From Kitasatospora viridis (GTDB taxonomy: Bacteria > Actinomycetota > Actinomycetes > Streptomycetales > Streptomycetaceae), in assembly GCF_007829815.1 (NCBI RefSeq), contig NZ_VIWT01000008.1, positions 62,001 through 126,000 of the forward strand: a stretch of DNA of 64,000 nt. Reading direction: 5' to 3'. Of the stretch, positions 16,751 to 37,006 are shown in pieces. A program made the translations under genes and the position numbers. The notes under the pieces are model-generated. The model was not told the origin of the DNA. It ran no database searches and saw only the letters and a program-made list of their open reading frames with translations. Each line of letters opens with the position of its first letter. Within the stretch, counting starts at the first letter, position 1.

Positions 16751-17845
16751 TCAGGCGGCGTGCTGGGCGGCGTCGGTCTGGTCGTACGGGAGGGGGATGG
16801 GGGCGGGCAGGGTGCGGGTGGTCTCGGGCCACCCCTTGCGCCACTCCTCGACCACGGTCAGCACGATGGGGCCGGTGACGCCGTAGTAGGCGGCGAGCAC
16901 GCGCACGGCGTCGTCCTTGGTGGTCTGGGCGGTGCCGACGACGCACCCGGCGGTGCCCTCCTCGGCGTACCACTTGCCGTCTTCGGTGATCACGCAGCCG
17001 CCGAAGTTGGCGGAGGTGACCAGGCCCTTGCCGCGTTCGACCATGTCGACGGCGACGGCGGTGGTGGTCATGATCGCGGTGAGCGCGTCGGCGGCGGCCC
17101 GGTGGGTGGCGACGGTCTTGGCGCAGTCGGCGGCGGACTTCTCGGCCTTGGTGGCCACGGTGGTCCAGTGGTGGGCGCGGTCGTCGCCGGGGCGCTCGGC
17201 GAGGGCCCGGCGGTGGCGCTCGGCTTCGGCGGTCTCGCGGCGCTCCTGGTCGGCCCAGTGGGCGGCGCTGCGCTCGTGCTCGGTGCGGAAGCGCTCCAGG
17301 GTGGGGGTGTCGGTGACCACCATGATCACGCCCACCTCGTCCCGGGTCTTGCCCGCGTACAGGGTGATGGTGCCGCCGTTGTTGATCATGACCTCCCCGT
17401 GCTCGGCGCGGACGCGCTCCACCGCCTCCCAGACCTCGGCCGGGGTCTGGTGGGTGAGGGGGCGGGAGGTGCCGCCCCAGGTGTCGGCGTAGCCGTAGGC
17501 GGGGGCGGTGAGGTGCTCGCGGGTGACGGGGATGCCCTTGACGGGGCGCAGCGGGGTGCCGGGGGTCACGCGCAGCATGGGCACGTGGTAGGTGCTCTGG
17601 GCGCCCCGGTGCTGGGAGGTGCGTTCGACGTCGTAGCCGCGCTGCTCCAGGGCGGTGGCGATGTCGTCGAGGGCGGTGGCGTCGGTGCCCTCCCAGGTGA
17701 CGGCGACTTCCCCGGGGGCGGTCTGAGAGACCTGGTAGCCGGTGTGGGGGTTGCGCCGGATGCCCTTGTCCGTGAGTGCGGTGGTGGTGGCGAGTTGGCG
17801 GGAGATGGTGGCGGCGTGGGCGGTGGTGGCGGGCTTCGCGGTCAT
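16751..17845 (-). CDS. Family A module protein, 364 aa
   Basis: The ATG at 17845 follows GGGAGCC. Residues about 35-105 contain one copy of the module shared by several family A proteins: GYQVSQTAPGEVAVTWEGTD, then LDDIATALEQRGYDVE and a closing LRVT. The central part is helical (AEAERHRRALAE). The C-terminal third (VITEDGKWYAEEGTAGCVVG) looks strand-rich. No catalytic motif is seen. Controlled by family A copy 3, 48 nt upstream. Confidence 0.65.
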   Translation of the reverse strand: MTAKPATTAHAATISRQLATTTALTDKGIRRNPHTGYQVSQTAPGEVAVTWEGTDATALDDIATALEQRGYDVERTSQHRGAQSTYHVPMLRVTPGTPLRPVKGIPVTREHLTAPAYGYADTWGGTSRPLTHQTPAEVWEAVERVRAEHGEVMINNGGTITLYAGKTRDEVGVIMVVTDTPTLERFRTEHERSAAHWADQERRETAEAERHRRALAERPGDDRAHHWTTVATKAEKSAADCAKTVATHRAAADALTAIMTTTAVAVDMVERGKGLVTSANFGGCVITEDGKWYAEEGTAGCVVGTAQTTKDDAVRVLAAYYGVTGPIVLTVVEEWRKGWPETTRTLPAPIPLPYDQTDAAQHAA

Positions 17846-17892
17846 CTCGGTGGCTCCCTGGGCGGTGGTCGGTCGAACGCAACAAGGCCAAG

Positions 17893-17932
17893 CTAGTGCA
17901 CAGCGATGAGTATGCGCAAGCTGTGTCACTAG
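17893..17932 (-). promoter_or_regulatory. Family A operator-promoter, copy 3
   Basis: Minus-strand -35 TTGCGC, 18 bp, -10 TAGCTT, arms CTAGTGACA and GTGCACTAG. The inner flanks CACAGC and GCTGTG are also complementary, extending the dyad. Confidence 0.8.
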
Positions 17933-17956
17933 ATTGGCTGGCCGGGCCGGACAACA

Positions 17957-18000
17957 GGCCGCCCCGCTGCTCCCGTCACCAGGGGCGCAGCGGGGCGGCC
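17957..18000 (-). terminator. Hairpin after the ArdA-like gene
   Basis: 14-bp perfect stem (GGCCGCCCCGCTGC) with a 16-nt loop, 12 bp after the stop at 18013. Confidence 0.65.
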
Positions 18001-18012
18001 ACCGCCACGGGC

Positions 18013-18624
18013 TCACTGCTCGCTCGGGTCTCCTGCTTCCTGCTCGAACACGTACGCCCGCCCGCCCACCTCGAAGATCAGCACGTCCTCACGGCTGAGG
18101 TAGTACCACTCCCCCGCCGACCGCCAGTCCACGAAGTCCGCCAGGCCCGTCAGGATGCCCATGCGGTCACGCCCCTCGTACTCGCTGCGGGCCCACGCCG
18201 CCACCGAGTCGAACACCCCCTGGTAGGCGTCCTCCGCGATCTCCTCCAGCTCCAGGGCCGTCACCTCGTGCTCGCCGTTGCGCTGCTCCACGAACAGGCC
18301 CATGGCGTTCACCGCGTGCTCCCCGTGCGCGTCCACCAGCTGCGCGACGGTCTCAAGCCACTGGTGCCCCTCCTCGGCAAGCACCTCGAACCCGTCCCGG
18401 CCCACCTCGGCCACGGCCGCGATGATCTCCCGCTCCCCCCGGGCCGCCCGGTCCGCCAGGGCGTAGCCGACCACCCCGAGGGAGTCCAGTTCCGCCAGCC
18501 GCTCCGTGTCGCCCGCCTCGGCCGCCTCGATGCGCTGCTCCGCGAACGCCCCGTGCACCAGCGGGTCACCCTCGAACTCGGCCAGCAGGCCCTGGATACG
18601 CGCGTCGCAGTCGAACTTGCCCAT
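18013..18624 (-). CDS. ArdA-like antirestriction protein
   Basis: 203 aa from the ATG at 18624, with GAGAGG further upstream than usual. Residues about 130-195 contain EIAEDAYQGVFDSVAAWARS and FVDWRSAGEWYY ... VGGRAYVFE, which follow the C-terminal pattern of ArdA proteins (EAYxGxFDSxxxYA ... YIDYxxYAxxL ... VYVF). ArdA is an acidic DNA mimic that blocks type I restriction enzymes and is common on conjugative elements. The N-terminal part is helical and acidic but diverges from classic ArdA, so the call is tentative. Confidence 0.5.
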   Translation of the reverse strand: MGKFDCDARIQGLLAEFEGDPLVHGAFAEQRIEAAEAGDTERLAELDSLGVVGYALADRAARGEREIIAAVAEVGRDGFEVLAEEGHQWLETVAQLVDAHGEHAVNAMGLFVEQRNGEHEVTALELEEIAEDAYQGVFDSVAAWARSEYEGRDRMGILTGLADFVDWRSAGEWYYLSREDVLIFEVGGRAYVFEQEAGDPSEQ

Positions 18625-18688
18625 GGTGATCTTGAACCCTCTCAGTACCGTCCAACGCCCCGGGACCACCCCGGACCGCCCCACCCAA

Positions 18689-18716
18689 GGGGGCGCAGCA
18701 CCACCGCCACGCCCCC
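18689..18716 (-). terminator. Hairpin after the gene at 18730
   Basis: 7-bp stem GGGGGCG/CGCCCCC with a 14-nt loop, 13 bp past the stop. Confidence 0.4.
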
Positions 18717-18729
18717 GCCCACCGCAACG

Positions 18730-19698
18730 CTAGGCCACCTCGGCCACCGGCTTGACCACCGCGACCATCAGCCGCTGCCACTTCGCCAGGATGCCGCCCG
18801 GGGGCACGTCCTCCAGGGTGATCACGCTCTCACCGCGCCCCTGCTCCCGGTACCCGGCCACCACCGCCGAGCGCACCAGCGCCACCGCCCACGCCCGGTC
18901 ACCGTGCTTGCTCCGGGTCGCGTGGGTGGGGAACTCCTCCCACACCCCCTCGAACAGCTCGCCCTGGGGCACCAGCGCCTCAGCGATGGCATCCGCGTCC
19001 GCCCGGCGCCGCTCCCCCTCCCGGTGCCAGTCCAGAATGGTCTGGTCCACCACGCGCAGCGCTGCGCCGTCGCGCCCCTCGATCAGCAGCACGCCGAACC
19101 CGGCCGCCTCCAGCGCCGCCTTAGCCTTGCCCACGGTGTCCGCGTGCCCCTCCGGCGCAGCGATGCGCGCCCCCTTGTCGTCGGAGAACGCCCGCTGGAA
19201 CGCCGCCTGGTTCTGGGCGCGGTAGTACCAGGACACCGTCACGGACGTGCCCCCGCCCTCACCCCGGCCGGGCGCGTCCTGCCGGAAGCCGTCGCTGTGC
19301 ACGCCGAAGAACCCTCCGGACTTGACGCTCTGCTCCAGCCCGGCCCCCTTCAGCACCCGGGTGATGGACCCCTTGACCGGCTCACGCACCGGCGCGGGCG
19401 CGGCCACCTCCACCACCGCCTGCTGCTCCCCGCCCTCACGCTGCTCCCGCTCGGCGCGGACCTCGGCAAGGGTGGCGTCCAGGGCTGCCTGGCGGTCGGA
19501 CTCGATGCCGGTGGCCGTGGTGAACCCGGTGTCGGTGAGGACGTAGCCGCCGTCCCCGGCGGCGCTCAGGTAGCCGTCGGCCGCGAGCGACACCAGGGTG
19601 CGCAGGTTGCCGGTGACGCGGCGCAGCGGGTTGTCGAGGGGGCTTTCGATCCCGGTGAGCAGGGCCTTGGACTTGGCGGGGCTGAGCTTGCGGGCCAT
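18730..19698 (-). CDS. Family A module protein with winged-helix start, 322 aa
   Basis: The ATG at 19698 follows CGGAGGACC. Residues about 18-65 (LDNPLRRVTGNLRTLVSLAA, then GYVLTDTGF) look like a winged helix. Residues about 110-218 hold one copy of the shared module: ITRVLKGAGL, GGFFGVHSDGF, TSVTVSWYY, AKAALEAAGFGVLLIEG and ALRVV. The C-terminal 90 residues are helical. Driven by family A copy 4 and ended by a short hairpin. Confidence 0.65.
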   Translation of the reverse strand: MARKLSPAKSKALLTGIESPLDNPLRRVTGNLRTLVSLAADGYLSAAGDGGYVLTDTGFTTATGIESDRQAALDATLAEVRAEREQREGGEQQAVVEVAAPAPVREPVKGSITRVLKGAGLEQSVKSGGFFGVHSDGFRQDAPGRGEGGGTSVTVSWYYRAQNQAAFQRAFSDDKGARIAAPEGHADTVGKAKAALEAAGFGVLLIEGRDGAALRVVDQTILDWHREGERRRADADAIAEALVPQGELFEGVWEEFPTHATRSKHGDRAWAVALVRSAVVAGYREQGRGESVITLEDVPPGGILAKWQRLMVAVVKPVAEVA

Positions 19699-19742
19699 GG
19701 GGTCCTCCGGTGCTTGGCAGGGCGTTGGTGACAGGAAGAAAG

Positions 19743-19782
19743 CTAGTGCACCGCTGCGCGTATACGCAAGTGGGTTCACGAG
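19743..19782 (-). promoter_or_regulatory. Family A operator-promoter, copy 4
   Basis: Minus-strand -35 TTGCGT, 18 bp, -10 TAGCTT, arms CTCGTGAAC and GTGCACTAG. The centre contains GCGTATACGC, itself a palindrome. Confidence 0.8.
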
Positions 19783-19883
19783 ACTTCCCGGCGGGCCAGG
19801 GTGACAACCGGCGCCCCATCACGGCCGGTAACACGAGGTGGAGTCACCACCACGAACTATGACAATCAGTGACCAAAGGGGAA

Positions 19884-19917
19884 GGGCGCGCTACCCGGTC
19901 TCCCAGGTGCGCGCCCC
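19884..19917 (-). terminator. Hairpin after the gene at 19941
   Basis: 8-bp stem GGGCGCGC/GCGCGCCC with a 17-nt loop downstream of the stop. Confidence 0.45.
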
Positions 19918-19940
19918 GCTGTTGTGCCCCCGCTTCTGCC

Positions 19941-20444
19941 CTACTCCTCGGACCACCAGTCGGTGAGGGCCGGGTCGAGGAACGCGGCGTACTGCTCCTC
20001 TCCCAGGAACTCCCGCAGGCGCGGAGTCACCACCTGGGCCGTGGTGAACTCCTCCCACTCCGCGTCCACGTCCGCGCGGGCGGTCTCGTTGCGGTCCAGC
20101 CACACGGTGAAGTCCCCGGCGCTGCGGTCGAAGTCCCGAGCGTTCTCGACCAGGTGGTGCAGCAGGTCCTGAAGGATGGGGGTGCTACCGAAGGGCCCCC
20201 GGGTGCCGTACTCGCCCGGGGTCTCGTACTCAACCAGGAGGTAGCGGCCGTGGTGCCCGGACAGGGCGCCGTCTTCCTTGTCGTCCCCGAGCGCGATCCC
20301 CGTGCCGTCCAGCAGGGCGCGGAACAGGATGACGGCCCAACGCTGAATCTGAACGGTCCCCGGGTCGGCGGTACCGATGTGATGGAAACGGGCGGTGATG
20401 GCGTTGACCTTGATGCGGCCGGACGCGGCGATCTGCTGGGCCAT
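19941..20444 (-). CDS. Unknown 167-aa protein
   Basis: The ATG at 20444 has AGAGGGAG upstream. Mixed alpha/beta with an acidic C-terminus (DPALTDWWSEE). It follows the 69-aa gene by 27 bp, so the two probably form an operon. No recognised family. Confidence 0.6.
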   Translation of the reverse strand: MAQQIAASGRIKVNAITARFHHIGTADPGTVQIQRWAVILFRALLDGTGIALGDDKEDGALSGHHGRYLLVEYETPGEYGTRGPFGSTPILQDLLHHLVENARDFDRSAGDFTVWLDRNETARADVDAEWEEFTTAQVVTPRLREFLGEEQYAAFLDPALTDWWSEE

Positions 20445-20471
20445 GGTCGTGGGGTCTCCCTCTGGGGTAGG

Positions 20472-20681
20472 TCAGTTGGTCGGAACGTCGGCGGGGCCAG
20501 CGATGTACCAGCGATCACGATGGGGGCCACCACCGAAGCGGAAGACGAGCGGGCCGACGTGGATGTCTTGGTCGGTGGGGACGTCCACGTAGCTCGCCCA
20601 GTGGAGATTGCCGTTGAGCGCCTCAACGATCTTGATGGCGAGTTCGCTCCGGCTGGGGTCGGAACTGGGATTCCGGGCCAT
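20472..20681 (-). CDS. Unknown 69-aa protein
   Basis: The ATG at 20681 is preceded by TTGGAGAACC, a good ribosome site. The protein contains ELAIKIVEALNGNLHWASYV then VGPLVFRFGGG, a helix followed by strands. It lies between a terminator and the 167-aa gene. Small soluble protein, function unknown. Confidence 0.55.
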   Translation of the reverse strand: MARNPSSDPSRSELAIKIVEALNGNLHWASYVDVPTDQDIHVGPLVFRFGGGPHRDRWYIAGPADVPTN

Positions 20682-20736: not shown

Positions 20737-21903
20737 TCAGCGCATGGTGAGGATGTTGTCCCGGGAGGACATGATGGCGGGCTGGTCGGTGTCGGCGTTC
20801 TGAACGAGCCAGGCCCGGCGGCCGTGCAGGGTGGTGGTGTCCCGCAGGATGGCCGGGAACGAGCCGCCGCCCTGGAGCGAGACGACGTTGACCAGGGTGC
20901 CGCTGGGGAAGTCGGAGACCACCGGGGAGCACTCGGTGGCCAGCCACTCCGCGCCGCCGTCGTCGGTGACCTTGACGCGGGTGGGCTCGCCGTCGCGGTA
21001 GACCATGCGGGCCACCCTGCGGACGGTGCCATCGGCAACAGCGACCCGGGCATCCCGGGGGTAGTCGAAGTGAGCCGGGGTGGGGGTGGTGGGGTAGACG
21101 GCGAGCCCGGCCGGGCCGGAGACGGCGGCGCGCACGTACTCGTTGCGGGTGACCAGGTTGGTCTCGATGCTGGCCCGCCACTCCCGGTACGGGTCGTTGG
21201 TGAAGGCGTCGACGATGGCGCTCAGCTTGGGGCCGGTGACGCGGACGACGCCGGGGCCGCCGCTCTCGACGGTGCAGCCGGTCAGCCCGGCGGCGTCGAG
21301 CAGGTCGAGGGCGGGGCCGATGGGCGAGTGGCTGCGGTGGCCGACGCGGTCGGCGATGGGGCCGCTGTTGGGGGCGTCGGGCGCGGGGGTGGTGTCGGTC
21401 ATCTTGGTCACGGTGCCGGAGAGTTCGCGGATCACGATCACGTCGCGGCCGTCGTCGCTCTTCTGGCGGGTGACGGCGGCGCCGCGCCACACGGCGGCCA
21501 CGATCCGGGCGCGGACCAGGGGCGGGGTGATGATGCGGCCGGGCTCGGGGATGCCGTTGGCGGTGACGCTGGTGTTGTACCGGTTGGGGTAGGTGCCGGT
21601 GGCGGGGTTGCAGGCCATGGCGTCCGCGATGGTGCGCACGTGGTCCCTACGGGCCTTGCTCGCCTGGGCGTCGTCGTCACCGGTGGGGGGCTCCTCGGCG
21701 TGGCGGACGGCTTCGGCGCGCCCGGCGGCGGTGAGCAGCACGCGGCGGTTGGTGCCGGTGCCGTGCTCGAAGGCCAGGTCACGGCGGATGAGGGCGTTGG
21801 CGGTGCCCTTGGGGGCGTGGACCTCGTGGCCGAAGGCGGTGAGGGCGTCGAGGAGGGCGGTGATCATGGTCGGGGTGAGCTTGGCGGGCTTGTCCGTGGC
21901 CAT
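20737..21903 (-). CDS. Family A regulon protein with winged-helix start, 388 aa
   Basis: The ATG at 21903 follows CTGGAGACC. Residues 8-70 (MITALLDALTAFGHEVHAPK, then NRRVLLTAAGRAEAV) resemble a winged helix. Residues about 205-245 (ALDLLDAAGLTGCTVESGG, VVRVTG) may be a shortened form of the shared module. The C-terminal 150 residues are strand-rich, as in small barrel repeats. Transcribed from family A copy 5. Confidence 0.65.
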   Translation of the reverse strand: MATDKPAKLTPTMITALLDALTAFGHEVHAPKGTANALIRRDLAFEHGTGTNRRVLLTAAGRAEAVRHAEEPPTGDDDAQASKARRDHVRTIADAMACNPATGTYPNRYNTSVTANGIPEPGRIITPPLVRARIVAAVWRGAAVTRQKSDDGRDVIVIRELSGTVTKMTDTTPAPDAPNSGPIADRVGHRSHSPIGPALDLLDAAGLTGCTVESGGPGVVRVTGPKLSAIVDAFTNDPYREWRASIETNLVTRNEYVRAAVSGPAGLAVYPTTPTPAHFDYPRDARVAVADGTVRRVARMVYRDGEPTRVKVTDDGGAEWLATECSPVVSDFPSGTLVNVVSLQGGGSFPAILRDTTTLHGRRAWLVQNADTDQPAIMSSRDNILTMR

Positions 21904-21949
21904 GGTGGTCTCCAGTCCTTGGCAGGGTTGGGTGGTGACAGGAAGAAAG

Positions 21950-21989
21950 CTAGTGCACCACTTCGCGTATACGCAAGTGGTTTCACGAG
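21950..21989 (-). promoter_or_regulatory. Family A operator-promoter, copy 5
   Basis: Minus-strand -35 TTGCGT, 18 bp, -10 TAGCTT, arms CTCGTGAAA and GTGCACTAG. Inner flanks ACCACTT and AAGTGGT are complementary, giving a near-continuous dyad centred on GCGTATACGC. Confidence 0.8.
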
Positions 21990-21995
21990 AGTGGG

Positions 21996-22905: not shown

Positions 22906-22949
22906 GAGGGCTCCAGGGGCGTTCGGGTGCGGTGGTGACAGGAAGAAAT

Positions 22950-22989
22950 CTAGTGCACTGTCATGAGTATGCGCAAGACAGTGCACAAG
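22950..22989 (-). promoter_or_regulatory. Family A operator-promoter, copy 6
   Basis: Minus-strand -35 TTGCGC, 18 bp, -10 TAGATT. The arms are the most symmetric of all: GTGCACTGTC upstream and GACAGTGCAC downstream, 10 bp perfectly inverted. Confidence 0.85.
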
Positions 22990-22992
22990 AAT

Positions 22993-23041: not shown

Positions 23042-25879
23042 TCAGGCGGGGAGCACGGTCACCGTGATCTCGTCCTCCCGTTCGACCGCCCACCCAGCGG
23101 CCCGGAAGGCGGCCTCATGGGCCCCGGAGAGGGCGCGGGCGAGCTGCTCCCCCTCGCCGTCCGCCCAGACGTTGCACGGGGCGGTGACGCTCACCCGGTC
23201 GTGCAGCCTGGTCAGCTCGTCGGCCGGGGTGTTGTCCACGTTCACCGAGCCGTCGCGCAGGTGGGCGGGGAGCTGGGGGTAGACGCGGTGGCCGATGGTG
23301 CCAAGCTCGGTGTTCTCCCGGCTGAACCCGGCCCGCCACAGCACCTTGCGCGCCTCCACCACGGCCGGGGTGTCCGGGCGCAGGCCGTCCCGGGGATCGG
23401 TGAGGCTGCCGTCCGCCTCCACCGTGAGCCCGTAGCCGTAGCCGACCTGGGGCGCCAGGGTGCTGCTCTCCCGGGCGTTGAGGCCCTCGGCGCGCAGCGC
23501 GGCGACGGCCGCCCGGACCTTCTCCACCGGGGTGGCGTGGGAGAAGTTGACCAGGCAGTAGACGGCGGCGGTGGCGTGGTCGGGGATCGTGTACCGGGCC
23601 GGGTCGGAGCAGTGGCCGGGCATCCTGTCCGCCTTGACCAGGCCGAGGGTGGACAGGATGGAAGTCACCTTCCCTGCAAGGGAGTTGGGGCCGTCGCCGG
23701 GGATGATGTGCCAGACCATGTGGACGGTGCCGGTGCCCAGGGCGGCGGTGGCGGCGATCATGTCCGGCCTGCTGGCCACGGCGAGGAGCGAGCGGTTCCC
23801 GTAACGGGTCTTCAGCCACTGGTCGACCTGGGCGCCGGTGACGGTCAGCTCAGAGCGCTGCTTGCCGTCCAGGTAGGCGGTCTGGCGGTACATGGCGGCC
23901 GGGTCGGTCTTGACGGCCAGCCACTGGGCGCGGATGCGCTCGCTGTCGTCGGCCGCCGGGCGGCTCCACTCCCCCGTGCTGTTCTCGCCACGCTGCCAGC
24001 CGGTGCGGGTGAGGGCCTCGGCGTAGCGGGCGCGGCGCTCGGCCGGGTCGTGGTCGGTCTCCCAGCCCCTCGGGTGCTCGTGCAGGACCAGGAGGCCGGT
24101 GTAGGCGCCGCGCAGGTCGAAACTGGTCATGACGGTGAAGCCCTCGTGCTGCTCGCCCATGGGGGCGAAGCCCGCGCGGCTCAGCGCCTGGGCGGCGGCG
24201 TCGCGGTCGGCCTCGGCGCGGGCCTGCTGCTGGGGCAGGTCGCGCAGGGCGGCGAGCAGCTCGGCGGCGGTGGCCGCGTTGGCGGCCTGGCGGTGGGGAG
24301 CGGGGTGGCTGCGGTCGGTCAGCGCGTGCCAGCGCAGGCTGTCAGGGTTGCTGCTCTGTCGCCAACTCACCTCGTAGGAACGGCCGTTGGCGGTAGTGAA
24401 CAGCCACCAGTTCGACTCAGGGAACTTCGGGTTCATGGGGCGGATGGACTCGCCGTCGCCGACCAGGGGCATGGTGCGGACGATGCGCGGCACCTCGGGC
24501 AGAGCGCGGACGGCGGCGCGGTAGCAGACGTGGGGGAACTCGGCGCCCTCCTCGTGGGCGGTCCACCCGCCGGTGATCTCGTAGCCCTCCCGGCGGATGT
24601 GCTCGGCGACCTCGTTCAGCGTCACGGCCTCGGGGGTGGCGACGCCGTGACCGCCCACCTGCCAGTGGTTGCAGCGGCACACGCAGTCGAGGGCGATGGA
24701 GACGCCGACGAACGGGGACGCCTTGAACACGCGGACCTGCCGGGCGACGTGGTCGCAGGCGGGGGCGGCCGGACGGTGGGCGCGCGGCAGCGGGCGCGGC
24801 TGCACGGGGCCGGTGACGGCCTCACCCACGGTGGCGAAGGCGCCGAACGGCGGCTGCGGGACCACGGCGAAGGCGGGCTCAGGGTCGGCCACGGCCACGG
24901 GCGCGGGGGCAGCGTCGGGGGCCGAGGCGGGCTGCTCGAAGACGTCGACACCTTCGGTGACGCGGACGGCGGCCAGCGGCGCGCGGTCGAGGAGCTTGGC
25001 CACCTCGTCCAGGGCGGCCTGGCCGCGCTCGGCGGAGGCCCGGTAGGCGTCGCCGTCGCTCCGGCCGCAGGTCCAGGCGACCCGGACGCGGTTGCTGCCG
25101 CGCAGGCGGCGCAGGTACAGGCCGTCGGTGTCGAAGCCGCCGAGCTTGTCGGACTGGGCGAGCGTCAGGCTGGCCCGCTTCAGCGCGGCGCGGACGGCGG
25201 GGACGCTGAGCGCCGGGGCGGCGGGCGCGGTCTCGGGGGCGGGGGCGACGTCGGGCAGGTTCTGGGCGAGGGCCTCGGCGCGGTGGTAGACGGCGAGGTA
25301 CCCGTTCGGCAGGACGTGGACGACGTGCAGGCCCCTGGCGCGCAGGGCCTCGGCCATCGGCTCCAGGTCGATCCCGTAGCCGTGGACGGTGACGCAGCGG
25401 CGCTTGGTGTCGCTGGAGGCGGAGAAGCCGTGGCGCTTGGTGTCGCTGTAGCGGGGGAACTCGGCGGTGTCGAGCATGGCGGAGATGCTGGCGCCGGTGA
25501 TGCCGAACGAGCGGGCCTTGCGGCGGGCGGCCTTGGTGGCGCGCTCGACGCAGCGGGAGTCGGTGCAGGGCTGACCCTTGCGCAGGGCGTGGTGGTCGAG
25601 GTGGCCGTTGATCTTGCCCGCGTTCTTGACGGAGAGGGGGCAGGCGTCGAGGGCGGTCTGGTCGTAGAGCCAGGGGCGGTCGTACGGGTCGCGGGCCTTC
25701 AGCGGGGCGGCGTCGACGTCGTCGATCAGCGTCTTGGCCCAGGTGATGGCCTCCTTGGGCGTCATGGTGCGGTTGGGGGCGGGCACGAGGTGGTCGTTGA
25801 TCTTGATGATCGTCGGGTTGTACTGGTTGCCCTGGGGACGGGTGGCCTCGATGGTGCGGCCCTTGTGGGTGGTCTTCAC
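23042..25879 (-). CDS. Large multi-module family A protein, 945 aa
   Basis: A GTG at 25879 with CGGGAGACC upstream is the start; a long open frame further upstream is only the shadow of the next gene. At least five copies of the shared module can be traced, at about 149-200, 228-310, 560-640, 735-820 and 840-943. A typical pattern is a helix (ALKRASL or VLWRAGF), GF, a VxVxW strand, a helix such as YAEALTRTGW, and a closing LxVT strand. Cys/His pairs occur at about 80-110 and 375-410 (CVCRCNHW). No enzyme motif is seen. It may be a scaffold or DNA-associated protein, but that is inference. Confidence 0.7.
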   Translation of the reverse strand: MKTTHKGRTIEATRPQGNQYNPTIIKINDHLVPAPNRTMTPKEAITWAKTLIDDVDAAPLKARDPYDRPWLYDQTALDACPLSVKNAGKINGHLDHHALRKGQPCTDSRCVERATKAARRKARSFGITGASISAMLDTAEFPRYSDTKRHGFSASSDTKRRCVTVHGYGIDLEPMAEALRARGLHVVHVLPNGYLAVYHRAEALAQNLPDVAPAPETAPAAPALSVPAVRAALKRASLTLAQSDKLGGFDTDGLYLRRLRGSNRVRVAWTCGRSDGDAYRASAERGQAALDEVAKLLDRAPLAAVRVTEGVDVFEQPASAPDAAPAPVAVADPEPAFAVVPQPPFGAFATVGEAVTGPVQPRPLPRAHRPAAPACDHVARQVRVFKASPFVGVSIALDCVCRCNHWQVGGHGVATPEAVTLNEVAEHIRREGYEITGGWTAHEEGAEFPHVCYRAAVRALPEVPRIVRTMPLVGDGESIRPMNPKFPESNWWLFTTANGRSYEVSWRQSSNPDSLRWHALTDRSHPAPHRQAANAATAAELLAALRDLPQQQARAEADRDAAAQALSRAGFAPMGEQHEGFTVMTSFDLRGAYTGLLVLHEHPRGWETDHDPAERRARYAEALTRTGWQRGENSTGEWSRPAADDSERIRAQWLAVKTDPAAMYRQTAYLDGKQRSELTVTGAQVDQWLKTRYGNRSLLAVASRPDMIAATAALGTGTVHMVWHIIPGDGPNSLAGKVTSILSTLGLVKADRMPGHCSDPARYTIPDHATAAVYCLVNFSHATPVEKVRAAVAALRAEGLNARESSTLAPQVGYGYGLTVEADGSLTDPRDGLRPDTPAVVEARKVLWRAGFSRENTELGTIGHRVYPQLPAHLRDGSVNVDNTPADELTRLHDRVSVTAPCNVWADGEGEQLARALSGAHEAAFRAAGWAVEREDEITVTVLPA

Positions 25880-25928
25880 GGCAGGTCTCCCGGTTGCTCG
25901 GGGGCGGTCTTCCTTGGCACCGCTGAAT

Positions 25929-25968
25929 CTAGTGCAACATAATGAGTATGCGCAAGATGGTTCACTAG
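25929..25968 (-). promoter_or_regulatory. Family A operator-promoter, copy 7
   Basis: Minus-strand -35 TTGCGC, 18 bp, -10 TAGATT, arms CTAGTGAAC and TTGCACTAG; 50 nt before the GTG at 25879. Closest to the consensus. Confidence 0.85.
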
Positions 25969-25984
25969 ATTCGTTCTGGAGACG

Positions 25985-26043: not shown

Positions 26044-28722
26044 TCAGGAGGTCTCCTCCACGGCCTCCACCGCGCCCCGGTTCTGGGTGAACGAGACGAT
26101 CCGCACCAGGCCGACCGCCTCCAGGTACTCGACGTCGGCCGCGTGGACGCTCGCGGGCTCGTAGGCCCGGCGCTTGCCGCCCTTGCCCGGCTTGTCGACC
26201 CAGTGGACGGCCCGGCGGTTGGCCCGGATCGTCTCCAGCAGGGTCTCCTGTGCCTTGGTCAGGTGCTGGGGCAGCTCGGCAGCCAGGTCGGCCGCCAGCG
26301 CGGCGACCTCGTCGGGGGTGGCGACCCAGACCCGGCGAGCGGCGTTCGGGGCGATGTCGCCCCGGGACAGCGTGGGGCGGCCAGTGACGCCGTCGACCCA
26401 CACCCGCCGGGGCAGCTCCGCCAGCGGGTTCGTGAACCGGTCCCGCTCGACCTTGCCGTACTCGTCCGTGTCGACCCAGGTGAGCAGCTTGGCCGCCGCC
26501 GCGTCCCGCACGTGCAGGTACGCGCCGTACTTGCTGGTGTTCAGGGCGATGGCGACCGCCGTCGCGACGTTGATCAGCGGCCGGAGCCCGGTGCCCTCGT
26601 CGACCTTGCTGCCGGTCACCGCCGCCACCACGGCGGACAGCTCGACATCCTCGGGCTTGTAGCGGTGCACGACCTGGTCGGCGGTCAGGTCGCCCCCGGC
26701 GACCAGCTCGGCGAGGTAGCGCAGGCCGTTCGGCTTGTCGTGGCCGGGCACCTCCAGGGCGTCCAGCCACACCTCGAACTGCGCGCGGATACGGGTGATG
26801 CCCAGGCCCAGCATCACGCGCTGTTCCTCGGTCTGCGCGTCCAGCACGGCCCGGGTGAGCTGGCGCAGCCGGTCGCCGCAGGCGACGGCCTTGGCCTCCC
26901 AGTCCGTTTCGAACGGGCGCTGCTCGGGGCGGGGCGGGTCGAAGCTCTCCGGGGCGGGCGGCATGGCGCGGCCGTCCGGGGCAGCCATGATCACCACGTG
27001 CTCGGCGCCGCCGCCGCGCAGCTCCTCGGCGCGCACCTGGGCGTCGTCCCACACGTAGTCGTCGGCGCCGGTGTGGCGCTCGCCGCCGCTGGTCCAGGCG
27101 AGCACGTAGCGCTTACCGGCGGGCAGCGCCGAGGCCGGGGCCGTCGCCCACACCACGGCACTGCTGGCGACGACGTCCCGCCAGCCGTAGCCGCGCAGGG
27201 CCTGGGCGTAGGCGTTCAGCTTGTGGTCAACGCTGTTCGGCTCCTCGCCCGGCTGGGCGCCCATGACCCGGGTGCCGTCGAGGAACTCAAAGACGCGGAC
27301 GTCGTACTCGCTGCCCTCGACGTAGAAGCCGCTGGCGGCGGGGTTGCCGGTGCGGATGTCGTCGCCCACCACGCGCACCGCGCGCTGACCGTCGTCCGTG
27401 AGCACGTGGACGGCGGCGCGCACAGTGGCCAGGCGGTCGAAGCGCGGGGAGGTGCCCTCGGTGATGTTGGTGTCGGTGGGCGGGGTCACCCACAGCAGCT
27501 GCGACGAGGCCATCTCGTCGAAGGTCCACCCGGCGGCGGCCAGGGCCTGGCCGTACTCCCTGAGCTTGGTCAGGGCCTTGCGGTCCTTGGTGTCCCGGAC
27601 CCAGGTCAGCTCACCGGCGGCGTAGTCGTAGACGGCGATCCGGTCGTCGCGGCGCTGGACGACGAACCCGGAGGTCTGCTCGAAGTCCTCGGGGTCATCC
27701 GTGACGGGGGCGGGGTGGTGCCCAGCGGCGGCCAGCACGCGGACGGCGGCCTGCACCACGGCGTCGTCGGCCTGGTCCGGGTAGCAGCCGTGGGCGGTGC
27801 CGCCGTGGACGACGACCGTCCCTTCGATGGGCTCGGCCACGCGGACGGCCAGGACGGTGGCGGGCTGCTGGGGCACGGCGGTGTTCTCCTCGGTGGTGTC
27901 GGGCTTGGTGGTGGCGCTGGCGATCCAGAACTTCTTGCTGGGGTGGTGGAGAGTGTCGGACATGTGCTCGGTGTAGGTGGCCAGGCCCTTCTCCACCAGG
28001 GACTGGACGGTGCGCAGGCTGATGCCGTAGCCCGCGTGAAGCTCGCCCTCCTGGAGGCGCTTCCACGCGTCGGCCTGGGCCGGGGTGAGCGTGATGCCGT
28101 CGGGGGTGGTGAACGTCTCCGGCTTGGCCTTGACGGGCTCGGGACGGGTGCTCGTGCCGGTGACCTTGATGATGTGCTGGTCGGTGCGGTCGTAGACCTC
28201 GGCCGTCCAGCCGTCGGCCCGCAGGGCCTGCACGAACTCGCCGATGTCGTCCTGCAGGGCCTCGCTGACGCCGACGTCGACGCTGTCCAGGCGCTCGAAC
28301 GCGAAGTACGCCTTCGGGCCCTTCCCGGCGGCCTCCAGGGTCTGAACGACCCGGGCGACGACGGGGGCGCCCTCCACGCGGGGGCGCGGCTCGGCGAGCG
28401 CGGTGACCTCCAGCGCCCCTTCGCGCGGGGACTTCTCGTTGTGCTCGACGTCGAAGAAGTCGGAGAGGTACGCGGCGTAGTCGGCCGCGAACTCCCGTGC
28501 GATCCGCTCGCTGCTGCCCAGCCCGACCTTGTCCAGGTGAGGGCCCCAGTAGAGGGAGACGTAGGAGCGGGCCCCCGCGCCACCGCTGCTCAGGCGGGCG
28601 CCGGGCTTGACGGAGGGGTGGGTGTAGCTGGACTCCACCTTCACGGAGACCTGGAACCCGGCCCGCTTCAGGCGGGTCTGGACGAGGGCGACGGTGATCG
28701 TGGGCTTCGTGGTCTCGGGCAT
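26044..28722 (-). CDS. Large multi-module family A protein, 892 aa
   Basis: The ATG at 28722 follows CCGGAGAGCC. Module copies lie at about 8-110 (TRLKRAGF ... YVSLYWG ... ALEVT), 120-188, 320-413 (VRVLAAAGHH ... GFVVQRRDDRIAVYDY ... YGQALAAAGW ... LLWVT) and 432-528. Residues 205-270 look like a winged helix. The C-terminal 300 residues are mostly helical and differ from the 945-aa neighbour. No catalytic motif. Own promoter (copy 8) and terminator. Confidence 0.7.
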   Translation of the reverse strand: MPETTKPTITVALVQTRLKRAGFQVSVKVESSYTHPSVKPGARLSSGGAGARSYVSLYWGPHLDKVGLGSSERIAREFAADYAAYLSDFFDVEHNEKSPREGALEVTALAEPRPRVEGAPVVARVVQTLEAAGKGPKAYFAFERLDSVDVGVSEALQDDIGEFVQALRADGWTAEVYDRTDQHIIKVTGTSTRPEPVKAKPETFTTPDGITLTPAQADAWKRLQEGELHAGYGISLRTVQSLVEKGLATYTEHMSDTLHHPSKKFWIASATTKPDTTEENTAVPQQPATVLAVRVAEPIEGTVVVHGGTAHGCYPDQADDAVVQAAVRVLAAAGHHPAPVTDDPEDFEQTSGFVVQRRDDRIAVYDYAAGELTWVRDTKDRKALTKLREYGQALAAAGWTFDEMASSQLLWVTPPTDTNITEGTSPRFDRLATVRAAVHVLTDDGQRAVRVVGDDIRTGNPAASGFYVEGSEYDVRVFEFLDGTRVMGAQPGEEPNSVDHKLNAYAQALRGYGWRDVVASSAVVWATAPASALPAGKRYVLAWTSGGERHTGADDYVWDDAQVRAEELRGGGAEHVVIMAAPDGRAMPPAPESFDPPRPEQRPFETDWEAKAVACGDRLRQLTRAVLDAQTEEQRVMLGLGITRIRAQFEVWLDALEVPGHDKPNGLRYLAELVAGGDLTADQVVHRYKPEDVELSAVVAAVTGSKVDEGTGLRPLINVATAVAIALNTSKYGAYLHVRDAAAAKLLTWVDTDEYGKVERDRFTNPLAELPRRVWVDGVTGRPTLSRGDIAPNAARRVWVATPDEVAALAADLAAELPQHLTKAQETLLETIRANRRAVHWVDKPGKGGKRRAYEPASVHAADVEYLEAVGLVRIVSFTQNRGAVEAVEETS

Positions 28723-28765
28723 CAGGGGCTCTCCGGTGGTAGCGCAGGTGGCGACACCGGTGAAT

Positions 28766-28805
28766 CTAGTGCACACCAATGCCCATACGCAAGTTGTTTC
28801 ATTAA
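28766..28805 (-). promoter_or_regulatory. Family A operator-promoter, copy 8
   Basis: Minus-strand -35 TTGCGT, 18 bp, -10 TAGATT, arms TTAATGAAA and GTGCACTAG. The upstream arm is the most degenerate of the set. Confidence 0.75.
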
Positions 28806-28810
28806 AGTTG

Positions 28811-33059: not shown

Positions 33060-33089
33060 ACCGTAACCCAGATATCTGGGTGACCGCAA
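33060..33089 (-). promoter_or_regulatory. Family B operator-promoter, copy 1
   Basis: Minus-strand -35 TTGCGG (33084-33089), 18-bp spacer, -10 TACGGT (33060-33065). The spacer contains the perfect palindrome ACCCAGATATCTGGGT (33066-33081). Confidence 0.75.
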
Positions 33090-33149
33090 TGCCAATTCGG
33101 GGAATTCTGTCTTCTGGGCCGGGACGTGCGCCAGCCAGCTGCGCAGCTC

Positions 33150-33650
33150 TCACCAGTCCAGGGAGAACCAGACGACCTTGGTGTCGCCGCGCTTCACGAC
33201 GCCCCACTCCTCCGCCATGGCCTCGACCAGGAGCAGCCCCCGGCCACCCACCAGCCCCTCACCGTCGGCGCCGTCGATGTCCTCGAAGCTGACCGGCTCG
33301 GACGCCTGCGCGGGCACCGCGACCTTGTCGGCGGACTCGGGGTCGCCGTCGATGACCTCGATCAGCACCCGGGCGTCGGCGCGCAGTTCGGCGCGCACCA
33401 CGACCTTCGCTTCGTCGCCTTCCGGGTCGTCGGCGTGGCGGACGCTGTTGGTGATGATCTCGGACAGCAGGAGCACTGCCGTCTCGATGACCCGCGTGAT
33501 CCCGTGCCACTGCGTCAGGCGCTGGCGCAGGTCGTCGCGGGCGACACCGACGCTCTCGGGATGGGCGGGGTAGGGGCGCCGGTACGGCTGGAATCCGTCG
33601 GGGTTGGCGCGCGCCAGTCTGTTGCTGGCGGCCTTCGCGGTCTGGCTCAC
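33150..33650 (-). CDS. HATPase (anti-sigma-factor-like) protein
   Basis: About 166 aa. Two GTG codons are possible; the one at 33650 has GGAG 10 nt upstream and is preferred to 33659. LLLSEIITNSVRHAD is the N-box of GHKL ATPases, VLIEVIDGDP matches the D-box, and GGRGLLLVEAMAEEWG the G-box. Single-domain proteins like this are RsbW/SpoIIAB relatives and are abundant in Streptomyces beside XRE/DUF397 genes, where the partner is rarely known. Divergent from the XRE gene. Confidence 0.85.
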   Translation of the reverse strand: MSQTAKAASNRLARANPDGFQPYRRPYPAHPESVGVARDDLRQRLTQWHGITRVIETAVLLLSEIITNSVRHADDPEGDEAKVVVRAELRADARVLIEVIDGDPESADKVAVPAQASEPVSFEDIDGADGEGLVGGRGLLLVEAMAEEWGVVKRGDTKVVWFSLDW

Positions 33651-33750
33651 AAGTCTCACGCTCCAGGGGCGTACGAGTGGAACCGGGCATCACCCACCCT
33701 GGCCCGACGTGCGCACAGCGTGAGCGTCTCCAATACCCACGGTCCCGCAA

Positions 33751-33777
33751 GATCCGCGAAACTGCAACAATGTCAGC
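33751..33777. promoter_or_regulatory. Conserved intergenic element, copy 2 of 2
   Basis: GATCCGCGAAAC followed by TGCAACAATGTCAGC, matching the element at 6634. Lies between the divergent HATPase and XRE genes. Confidence 0.4.
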
Positions 33778-33866
33778 TGAACGAATGTCATTTCGATAGT
33801 GGAGTTTGACGCTTCGACACGTCAGACTGATCCTTGGACACCGGACGAGACCAGGGAGACAACGGG

Positions 33867-34727
33867 ATGGCGTACGAGGGCGTTCCAACGGTTCGCAAGC
33901 GCCTGCTCGGCTACCACCTGCGGCAACTCCGCGAAGCGGAGGGTCTGAAGTGGGAGGACACCGCTGCTCGACTGCAGGTCGCCAAGCCGACCGTCATGCG
34001 CCAGGAGAGCGGCCACAGCGCGGTCTCCAGCGCCAACCTTGAAGTCCTCCTCGACTTCTACAAGGTCGGCGACCTGGACAAGCGCTCCCGTCTGGAGGCG
34101 TTCCGTCAGCACGGCCGCAAGCGGGGCACCTGGCACGCCTTCGGCACGGAGATCGGCCCGACCCTGCGGGACCTGGCCGACGCCGAGTCCATCGCCACCA
34201 GCATCCTGTGGTGGGAACTCGGGGTCATCCCGGGCATTCTGCAGACCGACGAGTACGCCGAGGCCACACTGCGCGGCGCCAGCGTTCAGGCCACCAACGA
34301 CGAAACGTTGCGCGAACTGGCGCACCTGCGCCGTGAACGCAGGCATACCCTGGAGAAGGACGGTGCTCCCGAGGCGTGGTTCATCCTCGGTGAGGCCGCT
34401 CTGAGGACCAGGACCGGCGGCCCTGGGAAGGCCGTGATGGAGACTCAGATCCGCTACCTGCTCGACATCAGCGAGCAGCCCCACGTGAACATCCAGGTCG
34501 TGCCGTTCGCCGCCGGAGCCCACCCAGGCGTGGCAGGCAGCTTCACCCTGCTCGGGTTCGACCAGGTCCTGACCTACCAAGCCCTGTACTTCGAGACGGC
34601 CGGGATCATCACCGATGAGGAGAAGTTGGTGGGGGAGAACCAGGCAAGGTTCACTCGCCTGCGGTCCCAAGCCGAGTCGACTCAGCAGAGCCGGAAATTC
34701 CTCCGGGAAGTTCTCGCTACTCTGTGA
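33867..34727 (+). CDS. XRE-family regulator with DUF5753 domain
   Basis: 286 aa; the ATG at 33867 follows CAGGGAGAC. Residues about 12-65 (LGYHLRQLREAEGLKWEDTA, ARLQVAKPTVMRQESG) form the XRE helix-turn-helix. Residues about 95-280 have the DUF5753 features (WWELGVIPGILQTDEYAEAT, VPFAAGAHPG). In Streptomyces these regulators (WhiJ-like) act with a small DUF397 protein encoded next door, as here. It may bind promoters in this element; the target is not shown. Confidence 0.9.
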   Translation: MAYEGVPTVRKRLLGYHLRQLREAEGLKWEDTAARLQVAKPTVMRQESGHSAVSSANLEVLLDFYKVGDLDKRSRLEAFRQHGRKRGTWHAFGTEIGPTLRDLADAESIATSILWWELGVIPGILQTDEYAEATLRGASVQATNDETLRELAHLRRERRHTLEKDGAPEAWFILGEAALRTRTGGPGKAVMETQIRYLLDISEQPHVNIQVVPFAAGAHPGVAGSFTLLGFDQVLTYQALYFETAGIITDEEKLVGENQARFTRLRSQAESTQQSRKFLREVLATL

Positions 34728-34756
34728 GTCAACTCGCAAGTACGAAGGGCTCTCCA

Positions 34757-34993
34757 GTGAACACACCATCCCAGGGGTACAAGCAGTGGCGCATCTCGTC
34801 GGAATCGGGCGGTGACCAGGGGTCTTGCGTCGATGTCGGCCTCGGCGACCTCGACGCCGAGACCGAGGAAGTCGCGTTCCGGGACAGCACGCTCCAGGGT
34901 AGGGGGCCGGTCCTCGGCTTCCCTGCGTCCGCAGTGACCGCGCTGACGGGCGCAATCAAGGTCAGGGGCAGCCGTCTCGCGGGCGGCTTCTGA
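34757..34993 (+). CDS. DUF397 protein, first tandem copy
   Basis: 78 aa from a GTG preceded by GAAGGG. SSESGGDQGSCVDVG and the closing FRDSTLQGRGPVLGFPASAV (then ALTGAIK) are standard DUF397 features. It is thought to be the partner of the upstream XRE protein. The downstream copy at 35187 is nearly the same protein. Confidence 0.85.
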   Translation: MNTPSQGYKQWRISSESGGDQGSCVDVGLGDLDAETEEVAFRDSTLQGRGPVLGFPASAVTALTGAIKVRGSRLAGGF

Positions 34994-35011
34994 CCAGTGC
35001 GCAACCAGAAT

Positions 35012-35046
35012 GGTGGCCCCCGGCGCGCGATTCGCCGGGGGCCACC
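35012..35046 (+). terminator. Hairpin between the two DUF397 genes
   Basis: 14-bp perfect stem (GGTGGCCCCCGGCG) with a 7-nt loop. Confidence 0.7.
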
Positions 35047-35186
35047 CCTGTTTCTACCCCATCGGGCCGTCAGAGCCTCTCATACCCGTTTGAAGATGCA
35101 TGGTCACATTCCGGCGATAGACGATCCCGCCCGGGGCATTCTCGCTACGCTGTGAGTCGCAACCCGCGAGAGCGAAGGGCGTTCCG

Positions 35187-35420
35187 GTGACACCGTCTCA
35201 GGGCTACAACCAGTGGCACATCTCGTCCCACTCCAACGGGGATCAAGGCGGCTGCGTCGATGTCGGTATCGACGCAGCCGCCCCCGAGGCCGAGGAGATG
35301 GCCATCCGGGACAGCACGCTCCAGGGCAGCGGGCCGGTCCTCGGCTTCCCCGCCTCCGCCGTCAGCGCCCTCACCAGCGCCGTGAAGACGAAGGGCCACC
35401 GTCTCGCGGGCGGCTTCTGA
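35187..35420 (+). CDS. DUF397 protein, second tandem copy
   Basis: 77 aa, GTG start with GAAGGGCG upstream. It differs from the first copy mainly in the middle (DVGIDAAAPEAEEMAIRDST). The 45 bp in front of it resemble the end of the XRE gene (TTCTCGCTACGCTGTGAGTC), showing that the duplicated unit, offset by 430 bp, included that 3' end. It has no XRE gene of its own, and a terminator lies between, so it needs separate transcription or read-through. Confidence 0.8.
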   Translation: MTPSQGYNQWHISSHSNGDQGGCVDVGIDAAAPEAEEMAIRDSTLQGSGPVLGFPASAVSALTSAVKTKGHRLAGGF

Positions 35421-35444
35421 CCAGCACGGCAACAGAAACGGTGG

Positions 35445-35789
35445 TCACGGCTGGTCCCGTACCCGAGCAGCGCGGTTGGCGATCTCGCTGGAGACCGGCT
35501 TGTAGTTGGCCAGGGCGGCCTCCACCGTGGCGCGGTAGGTGGCCAAGGCGGCCTCGAAGGTCGCCTCGGCGCCGGTCATCTCCTGGTGGGCATCGGCGAT
35601 CCGGTGGCGAGCGGCCTGCAGGGCGGCCTGCCACTGCTCGCGCTCGGCGTCGGTGGCCGGGACGGTGCCAGGCAAGTCGGTGAGCGCGAGCAGCGGGTGG
35701 GTGAGGTCGAAGGTGACCTCGGCCCGGTTGCCGACGTAGGCCAGCTCCTCCACGGGGTTGAGCTGCTTCGGCTTCCAGCTGTCGGTCAC
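35445..35789 (-). CDS. Unknown helical protein, 114 aa
   Basis: The GTG at 35789 overlaps the upstream stop. Residues 50-105 are a long Ala/Glu-rich helix (AHQEMTGAEATFEAALATYR), probably a coiled coil. It follows the 406-aa family A protein in the same transcript and may work with it. Confidence 0.6.
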   Translation of the reverse strand: MTDSWKPKQLNPVEELAYVGNRAEVTFDLTHPLLALTDLPGTVPATDAEREQWQAALQAARHRIADAHQEMTGAEATFEAALATYRATVEAALANYKPVSSEIANRAARVRDQP

Positions 35790-37006
35790 TGGGACTCCTT
35801 GGCGAGCTGCTGGGCCTGAAGGGCCTTGTACTCCTCCGCCTCGGCCACGGTCATCCTGGTGATGAAGAAGTCGGCGCTGTGCCTGTCGCGGATCATCTTG
35901 TGGCCGTGCTCCTGGATGCGCGCGGCGACCCACTCGTACTCGTTGGCGACATCGGGCAGCTGGCCGGAGGCGAGGTCGGAGCTGGCGGCCCGCACTCCCC
36001 CCTCGAAGGTGTAGCTCACCGGGACCTGCTCGGCGGCCTTGACCGCCCTGAAGGTCTGGGCGTTGCGAGGCGGGTGAACGTGGAACCCAGACGTCAACGT
36101 GTCGGCGTTGTAGAGCGCCGCTCCCATTCGGGTGAGCAGCGCCTTCACGTCGTCCATGCCGATCTTCGGGCGGGTGTGGAGCCGCTCGTGCTCGGCGTCG
36201 TCGATGGCCTGCTGAGCCTTGGCTCGCCAGGCCGGGGCGTGGTCGCCGAGGCAGTCGAGGGCGGTGGCGGCGGCCTTGCAGCGGCGGCACCACTTGACGG
36301 GGAGCTTGGTGCCGGTCGGGCACCCCCGGCGGGGTCCGTCGTGCCGGGAGTTGTAGACCTCGTCCGCGCCGGTGACGGCGAGGTCGCCGATGTCCTCCAG
36401 CCGGACCCCGGGAAGGGACTTCTTGGCGACGGCCGGGCAGGCGGCGGTGTGGATGGTCGGGACGAGAGCGTCGGCGGGGAAGCTCTCAGAGATGTCGATC
36501 TTGGGCCGGGCGATCACCCAGTCCCGGCTGCCGAGCACCGCATCTTCGGCAGCCAGTTGCTGCTCGGCCTGGCGCCCCTGTTCCGCTTCGGCGCGCTCGC
36601 GTTCGGCTTCGAGGCTGGCGGCCATCTCCTCGTAGCGGGCGGCGATAGGCTCTCCGGCGTGCTGCTGGTACAGGCGCTCGGCCGCTCCTACGCGGTCCTG
36701 GTACCGCTGCAGGGCGAGTTCGAAGACCTTCTCGTGGACCTTCAGGTCAGCCAGAGCCTCGTCAACCATCTCGGTGTAGACGTCGTGGGCGGTGGCCCAG
36801 ATCTCGACCTCGACCCTGGTGGCCTGGATCGGCCCCTCGCCGCTGCGCGCGTCGTACTCGTCCAGGGCGACGTCGACGGCCTGCTCGCGAAGGGCGGCGG
36901 TGACGAGGCGGAGCTTGCCCAGACGGCCCTGGGTCAGGTCGGAGTCGTAGTCCGTGCGGTCATCCGTGGTCGTGCGCCACAGCAGGGGGCGCTGGTCGGT
37001 GTCCAT
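35786..37006 (-). CDS. Family A module protein with zinc site, 406 aa
   Basis: The ATG at 37006 lies only 7 nt after the -10 TAGATT, so the transcript is probably leaderless. Residues 30-160 form long charged helices. A Cys cluster follows (CPAVAKK, GCPTGTK, WCRRCK). Residues about 285-395 hold one shared module: ALLTRMGAALYN, SGFHVHPPR, VPVSYTFEGG, YEWVAARIQEHGHKM and FFITRMT. Controlled by family A copy 9. Confidence 0.65.
   Translation of the reverse strand: MDTDQRPLLWRTTTDDRTDYDSDLTQGRLGKLRLVTAALREQAVDVALDEYDARSGEGPIQATRVEVEIWATAHDVYTEMVDEALADLKVHEKVFELALQRYQDRVGAAERLYQQHAGEPIAARYEEMAASLEAERERAEAEQGRQAEQQLAAEDAVLGSRDWVIARPKIDISESFPADALVPTIHTAACPAVAKKSLPGVRLEDIGDLAVTGADEVYNSRHDGPRRGCPTGTKLPVKWCRRCKAAATALDCLGDHAPAWRAKAQQAIDDAEHERLHTRPKIGMDDVKALLTRMGAALYNADTLTSGFHVHPPRNAQTFRAVKAAEQVPVSYTFEGGVRAASSDLASGQLPDVANEYEWVAARIQEHGHKMIRDRHSADFFITRMTVAEAEEYKALQAQQLAKESQ

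Follow-up and report, generated by a model that had tools for sequence, protein, structure and literature searches.

Contig C8 of Kitasatospora viridis (NZ_VIWT01000008.1; 155,259 bp, in a 10.1-Mb genome) encodes a recurrent protein module within bases 62001 to 126000, a stretch of 64,000 nucleotides that we call the window and number from its first base. A first-pass annotation of this stretch had described 12 copies of the module in five proteins, which we name by their first coordinate (16751, 18730, 23042, 26044 and 35786). Each of the genes was said to follow a member of one repeated promoter family, family A. Judged by sequence profiles, the module represents a true domain family without a name, about 75 to 120 residues long. 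The observation is partly confirmed, since it holds for four of the five proteins and 35786 is unproven.

A strongly diverged protein module

We cut the 12 segments by hand along the annotation's pattern and scored them with an outside profile of 34 sequences, none of them from C8 (15 chromosomal sequences thinned from 29, 15 core copies and 4 further phage copies). These members had been found through searches that started from window copies; the profiles themselves held no window sequence. The background consisted of 1,035 windows of other C8 proteins and 500 shuffles of each segment. Nine of the 12 copies (1a, 2a, 5a, 5b, 5e, 6a, 6b, 6c and 6d; Table 1) scored above every background window and all 500 of their own shuffles, and gene 5760-6086 also passed. 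Background windows scored as high as 5c, 5d and 7a; with one subfamily profile 7a reached 6.5 bits, a score matched by 2 of the 1,035 windows. Counted per protein, the confirmed copies were 1 of 1 in 16751, 1 of 1 in 18730, 3 of 5 in 23042, 4 of 4 in 26044 and 0 of 1 in 35786. Since three of the 12 copies lack sequence support, one of the five proteins is unsupported, and the annotated set shrinks to nine copies in four proteins. A 29-sequence profile of Streptomycetaceae sequences only placed 8 of the 12 copies above background. Four further window-free profiles were scored likewise, among which the core profile lifted 8 of 12 above all background. This recovery supports the annotation's view of a shared, strongly diverged domain.

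Iterated searches extended the family beyond the window. Two neighbouring proteins of a replicon from Streptomyces sp. RLB1-9, described below, match the 892-amino-acid protein 26044 (E = 5e-6 and 0.001), their partners there being 6c and the pair 6a plus 6b. A search iterated from these proteins and 1a led to a standalone 104-amino-acid protein and to tandem copies in metagenomic relatives. Under a strict threshold (E < 1e-3, with reversed sequences as decoys and record G433, a near copy of G432, excluded from the proteome set), the search closed at 18 members and zero decoys, with 1a, 5a and 6a included. Short of the threshold stood gene 5760-6086 (0.0068) and 2a (0.084), the best decoy being at 0.2. 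A looser iteration (E < 0.01) was dropped because it held at least one member that was false by eye. In profile-profile comparison, 2a and 5e matched the core at 67% and 39%, and 6b matched 6c/6d at 52%; 60 random segments gave at most 6.0%. The best links of 5c (22%) and 5d (29%) cover only about 20 helix columns, and 7a gave 4.4% against 4.3% for its own random control.

We considered whether the pattern is a loose arrangement of amino acids typical of GC-rich proteins, with no shared module behind it. A profile built from the annotation's own 12 copies fails to recover those left out: when window sequences only were used and one protein was withheld at a time, four proteins had best domain E-values between 0.06 and 1.4, and the 22 matches listed did not include 35786. 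The background-like scores of 5c, 5d and 7a fit such an explanation as well. It is nevertheless extremely improbable, given that window-free profiles recover 9 and 8 of the 12 copies, each scoring above all 1,035 background windows, and that the predicted secondary structures are concordant; for nine copies it is already contradicted.

An AlphaFold2 model of the standalone relative (18 rows; mean predicted local distance difference test score, pLDDT, 80) has the order helix, two strands, helix, two strands. The same order is predicted for 6a, 6b and 6d in a model of residues 1 to 535 of protein 26044 (6 rows, mean pLDDT 65), and also for 6c, where the last-but-one strand is barely formed. The 26044 modules and the one relative therefore agree in the predicted order of their helices and strands. 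At E ≤ 0.001, Foldseek matched the single module to nothing in the Protein Data Bank (PDB) and the four-module model to no viral entry. The single module also matches two viral models of no known function (E = 8.9e-5 and 1.6e-4). At curated cut-offs, Pfam, NCBIfam and PHROGs gave no match covering the modules; no PADLOC family was matched by the 10 proteins scanned, and no PDB sequence matched. Within these collections, the annotation was right that no named family describes the module.

A phage-plasmid and the distribution of the domain

By its genes and circular form, C8 is a myovirus phage-plasmid: a circular replicon outside the chromosome that encodes phage structural proteins. The first-pass annotation had missed the phage nature of the window. 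We scanned 10 C8 proteins against PHROGs, and the matches on C8 include tail sheath, baseplate wedge, major head protein, portal, terminase and DNA polymerase. The contig is also present in IMG/VR. Its head protein is 81 to 83% identical to those of contigs from Streptomyces sp. A0642 (152,548 bp), MH60 (156,949 bp) and RLB1-9 (154,158 bp), the last of which was deposited as the circular plasmid pRLB1-9.1. We consider C8 circular because an open reading frame spanning the contig ends aligns to its RLB1-9 homologue (432 columns, 38%). The head protein is also 56 to 59% identical to those of Bxz1-type phages of Rhodococcus, Gordonia and Mycobacterium (best-listed records in the phage collection). 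C8 resembles these myoviruses in its contractile-tail genes as well, whereas the module profile was unmatched in five of them, an absence uninformative by itself. Our literature searches, aimed at these phage-plasmids and not at the domain, found no paper treating them as phages.

The region of the module genes (contig positions 63,925 to 119,337) looks, by gene content, like a variable accessory region: 58 of its 73 predicted genes are without homologue in seven relatives, versus 10 of 96 elsewhere, in gene predictions from our own gene-calling script. A gene block at window positions 50280 to 54501 has no homologue in the seven relatives. To judge by motifs, one of its genes probably encodes a radical SAM-like cysteine motif and another may encode a thymidylate kinase. 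A 248-nucleotide direct repeat (34763 to 35010 and 35190 to 35437, 77% identical) encodes two small similar proteins and adjoins a helix-turn-helix gene (33867 to 34727) and an ATPase-like gene; the corresponding place in RLB1-9 has an annotated set of DUF397, helix-turn-helix and ATP-binding genes. A tyrosine-recombinase-like gene (47584 to 48678), which matches an RLB1-9 protein at 44%, is found on this apparently extrachromosomal phage, and RLB1-9 is annotated with an integrase near the homologue.

The module domain is not private to this phage, as profile matches in both directions indicate. With the 18-row profile, 49 of 394 Streptomycetaceae genomes gave a match, the source genome included (48 of the 393 others), and E went down to 5e-10 elsewhere. 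We read 29 chromosomal loci, 26 of which resemble, by eye, one family of single-module proteins. Over 394 genomes of the class, a 15-row profile matched 26, namely the source, 22 other Streptomycetaceae and 3 genomes from outside that family, where E was 1.9e-4 at best. Conversely, when phage proteomes were searched with a host-only profile, gene 5760-6086 (4.9e-8), 1a (1.2e-7), 5a (5e-4) and 5b (0.022) came first, followed by weaker matches to 6c (0.031) and 6d (0.1) ahead of the first decoy at 0.11. The module profile matched 2 of 36 further virus records. Most likely, to judge from these matches, the domain is carried by Streptomycetaceae chromosomes and, in non-structural proteins, by a group of large actinobacterial myoviruses, of which some exist as plasmids.

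With the 892-amino-acid protein, tblastn gave nothing at E ≤ 1 against phages and plasmids and only the protein itself in 61 genomes. IMG/VR scans with this protein and the 945-amino-acid protein 23042 returned only this contig, and tblastn of four phage module proteins gave no relevant match in the phage collection. The two-module profile A3 had no confident match beyond this phage in 394 genomes of the family (five others, E = 3e-4 to 0.008).

The A0642 phage-plasmid encodes a 1,006-amino-acid protein (L188:13942-16962) with a DUF6011 match, a DnaJ-like zinc motif, two C-terminal modules and a stretch resembling window gene 57853-58962. Proteins of the cultivated Streptomyces phages phiSAJS1 (gp68), Xkcd426, TurkishDelight and Geonosis, four read among 17 records, align with the N-terminal portion of a chromosomal protein whose end is a true module. 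Similar by eye, these phage proteins are possibly a distant module subfamily, without support from the module profiles, which do not score them. A module candidate (E = 3.5e-6) lies within a 9,491-amino-acid open frame of another Streptomycetaceae genome (L228).

Repeated promoters ahead of module genes

Ten family A sites precede ten genes of the window, nine on the minus strand and one on the plus strand (Table 1). Their consensus is nTAGTGnAC-n4-TTGCGyATrCnC-...-GTGCACTAGmTT, with a few departures. The layout comprises a TTGCGY box, a TAGMTT-like box and the inverted repeat CTAGTG(A/C)AC...GTGCACTAG. Allowing at most 3 mismatches, we found the pattern in none of the 69 further genomes from the genus; it occurs in its own genome on C8 only, and 13 related records gave a single match, at 3 mismatches. 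The less conserved arms of some sites (17890 to 37057) are mutually complementary, as in the sites of 16751 and 20737. A crude permutation test in a fixed register, which misreads some sites, gave p = 0.07.

All five proteins named by the first-pass annotation do carry a family A site. These carriers (4 confirmed) make up 5 of the 10 site-bearing genes, versus 1 carrier among the other 159 predicted genes. Gene 5760-6086 carries a module without a site, which contradicts the annotation both where it saw the module in no other protein of the window and where it gave every carrier a family A promoter. The module is concentrated in family A genes and not confined to them, given this gene, the Streptomycetaceae chromosomal copies and copies in relatives that are without a repeated promoter. 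No module was found in family A gene 20737-21903.

Module genes in six phages tend, by their upstream sequences, to lie behind the phage's own repeated promoter, whose element differs from phage to phage, a recurrence that the annotation had missed. The element is GCAAC-N4-GTTGC in RLB1-9 and GCGCACT-n4-AGTGCGC in A0642; three further phages (G097, G098 and G099) have other elements. To guard against circularity, we excluded the module genes from the search for repeated upstream motifs. In five genomes the promoter element ranked first, and in A0642 it shared that rank with a GC-rich pair. We counted only genes preceded by a gap of at least 40 bases, by which 5760-6086 and G098p_027 were dropped, and up to two substitutions were allowed, so that some sites are false. 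In three phages the site counts used (18, 15 and 14) belong to another listed motif, not to the top-ranked one (17, 14 and 13), which is the cautious side. Module genes stood behind their own element in 5 of 5 cases in C8 (11 of 97 over all regions), 2 of 3 in RLB1-9 (18 of 91), 4 of 4 in A0642 (12 of 89), 2 of 3 in G097 (15 of 84), 2 of 3 in G099 (14 of 84) and 2 of 2 in G098 (20 of 53). The association over the six phages gave a Fisher p of 2.6e-8 (8.6e-5 without C8; 2.3e-7 without the unproven 35786). The strictest version, with the 18 core members only, gave 6.2e-5, and 0.0028 without C8. Carriers without an element are gene 5760-6086, G097_135, G099_021, G098p_027 and G096_090, the last standing after a gene that does have one. 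The helix-turn-helix gene of RLB1-9 (76258 to 77346) has GAGAATTCTC repeats upstream and is no obvious regulator of the GCAAC-GTTGC family, because these repeats differ from that element.

Table 1. Features of the window, with module scores in bits and, as fractions, the background windows scoring as high
Feature	Position	Strand	Details
Module 1a	17552..17830	-	residues 6-98 of 364-aa protein 16751-17845; strict iteration; 40.3 bits, 0/1035
Module 2a	19036..19389	-	residues 104-221 of 322-aa protein 18730-19698; 23.4 bits, 0/1035; profile-profile 67%
Winged-helix-like segment of 18730	19480..19689	-	residues 4-73; E 0.029 after iteration, first decoy 0.32; weak
Winged-helix-like segment, family A gene 20737-21903	21676..21882	-	host-only profile E 3.8e-4, first decoy 0.23
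Module 5e	25280..25504	-	residues 126-200 of 945-aa protein 23042-25879; 19.3 bits, 0/1035
Module 5a	24929..25219	-	residues 221-317 of 945-aa protein; strict iteration E 2e-4; 30.7 bits, 0/1035
Module 5b	23954..24223	-	residues 553-642 of 945-aa protein; 20.4 bits, 0/1035
Claimed module 5c, not confirmed	23411..23686	-	residues 732-823 of 945-aa protein; 3.4 bits, 36/1035
Claimed module 5d, not confirmed	23045..23371	-	residues 837-945 of 945-aa protein; 5.8 bits, 13/1035
Module 6a	28387..28701	-	residues 8-112 of 892-aa protein 26044-28722; strict iteration; 20.3 bits, 0/1035; model
Module 6b	28150..28368	-	residues 119-191 of 892-aa protein; 8.2 bits, 0/1035; own-subfamily profile 25.2 bits; model
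Helix-helix-strand-strand segment between 6b and 6c	27913..28083	-	winged-helix-like by shape only; model secondary structure
Module 6c	27475..27768	-	residues 319-416 of 892-aa protein; 21.9 bits, 0/1035; model
Module 6d	27133..27435	-	residues 430-530 of 892-aa protein; 12.6 bits, 0/1035; recruited by 6c family profile; model
Claimed module 7a, not confirmed	35849..36157	-	residues 284-386 of 406-aa protein 35786-37006; 6.2 bits, 10/1035
108-aa single-module gene, no family A site	5760..6086	-	host-only profile E 4.9e-8; 28.7 bits, 0/1035
Family A site before 16751	17890..17940	-	repeat family
Family A site before 18730	19726..19783	-	repeat family
Family A site before 23042	25912..25969	-	repeat family
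Family A site before 26044	28749..28806	-	repeat family
Family A site before 35786	37000..37057	-	repeat family
Family A site before module-free gene 10442-11023	11076..11133	-	repeat family
Family A site before module-free gene 13231-13959	13985..14042	-	repeat family
Family A site before 20737	21933..21990	-	repeat family
Family A site before module-free gene 22036-22905	22933..22990	-	repeat family
Family A site before module-free gene 54785-55582	54734..54780	+	plus-strand site

Proposed role of the module proteins

Homology, the fold predicted for one relative and one window protein, the phage-plasmid setting and the promoter association are the ground on which a role can be proposed. Tentatively, and at somewhat less than even chances, we propose that the module proteins are early non-structural binding proteins encoded behind putatively repressor-held promoters of phage-plasmids, a winged helix taking them to DNA. 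A putative phage repressor would hold the repeated promoters down in the plasmid state, and these would fire upon infection or induction. The module proteins would then act early, binding protein or nucleic acid; those with a winged helix would be brought to DNA by it, and partner binding or oligomerisation would come from the modules, which the 945- and 892-amino-acid proteins carry several times in tandem. Repression, timing, binding and regulation are what we infer from the layout of the promoters, the setting and the domains that accompany the module. The invariant module columns are Leu, Gly and Val only, which fits a domain that binds better than one that catalyses.

Phage P1 has a network of operators for its C1 repressor. 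That temperate phage is maintained as a plasmid under repressor control (PMC8546580). C8 resembles P1 as a phage kept as a plasmid, with repressor control putative here, and differs in phage type and host. In cluster A mycobacteriophages, many repressor sites are spread over one genome and the consensus differs between related phages (PMC6550527). Their operators and stoperators are likewise many near-identical sites across a phage genome (ten here), whereas those sites are asymmetric and mostly off promoters; here the sites stand at promoters and the repressor is putative.

Several observations weigh against the proposed role. The charge of the modules is neither uniformly basic nor uniformly acidic, and most carriers have no winged helix, or none that we detected. 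As said above, 3 of the 12 copies, and hence protein 35786, lack sequence support. Only C8 and A0642 show a significant promoter link alone, the other four phages being individually not significant, and counting the 18 core members only leaves the RLB1-9 carrier without a site of its own.

Among the close comparisons is the chromosomal protein of Streptomycetaceae. It has the same module by profile in both directions, and a winged-helix-like segment precedes the module in 7 of the 29 loci, resembling those of genes 20737 and 18730, which a host-only winged-helix profile matched (Table 1). It differs in having one module per protein and a chromosomal location. The phages might have taken a host domain and express it in many diverged copies that block the partner of the host protein, for takeover or counter-defence. 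Tandem diverged copies and phage-wide promoters would fit a takeover set, and the same domain does occur in the chromosomes; set against the 10 proteins' lack of any PADLOC family match, we regard such mimicry as unlikely.

A role in replication or DNA handling, with modules binding nucleic acid at the phage's own genome, is suggested by a viral model annotated ParB/Sulfiredoxin that contains a similar segment (E = 1.5e-3) and by a computed isoelectric point of at least 8.6 in 12 of the 15 core copies outside C8. Several window modules are acidic, and the phage's recognised replication genes map to other parts of the contig and, unlike the module genes, are conserved in relatives; this role seems to us improbable. 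VIA-align listed tail terminators, ribosome recycling factor and EpsL/XcpY/PulM domains with Z up to 7.3, values that the tool calls common for unrelated folds. The circularly permuted ferredoxin-like domains of EpsL, XcpY and PulM reached at most 4.8 for the single module and 7.1 for 6b, in the range of common arrangements. The neck and tail-terminator chains in this output (Z up to 6.4 and 6.5) could point to structural proteins; such Z values, too, are common for unrelated folds, and the module genes lie outside the structural block, behind repeated promoters, so that a tail-terminator or neck-like role is very improbable.

Early non-structural binding proteins remain our preferred reading. 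One may speculate, at long odds, that the domain is a phage-host interface, its tandem arrays capturing or imitating a host regulator at the plasmid-to-lytic switch, and that its genes keep their tie to the operator of their own phage even as that operator's sequence changes between phages. The analysis contributes a domain family, without a name so far, that connects chromosomal proteins of Streptomycetaceae to a group of large phages and phage-plasmids. The module can mark these phages' variable region, and the proteins, together with their promoters, offer a concrete set that would bear on the phage's exit from the plasmid state.

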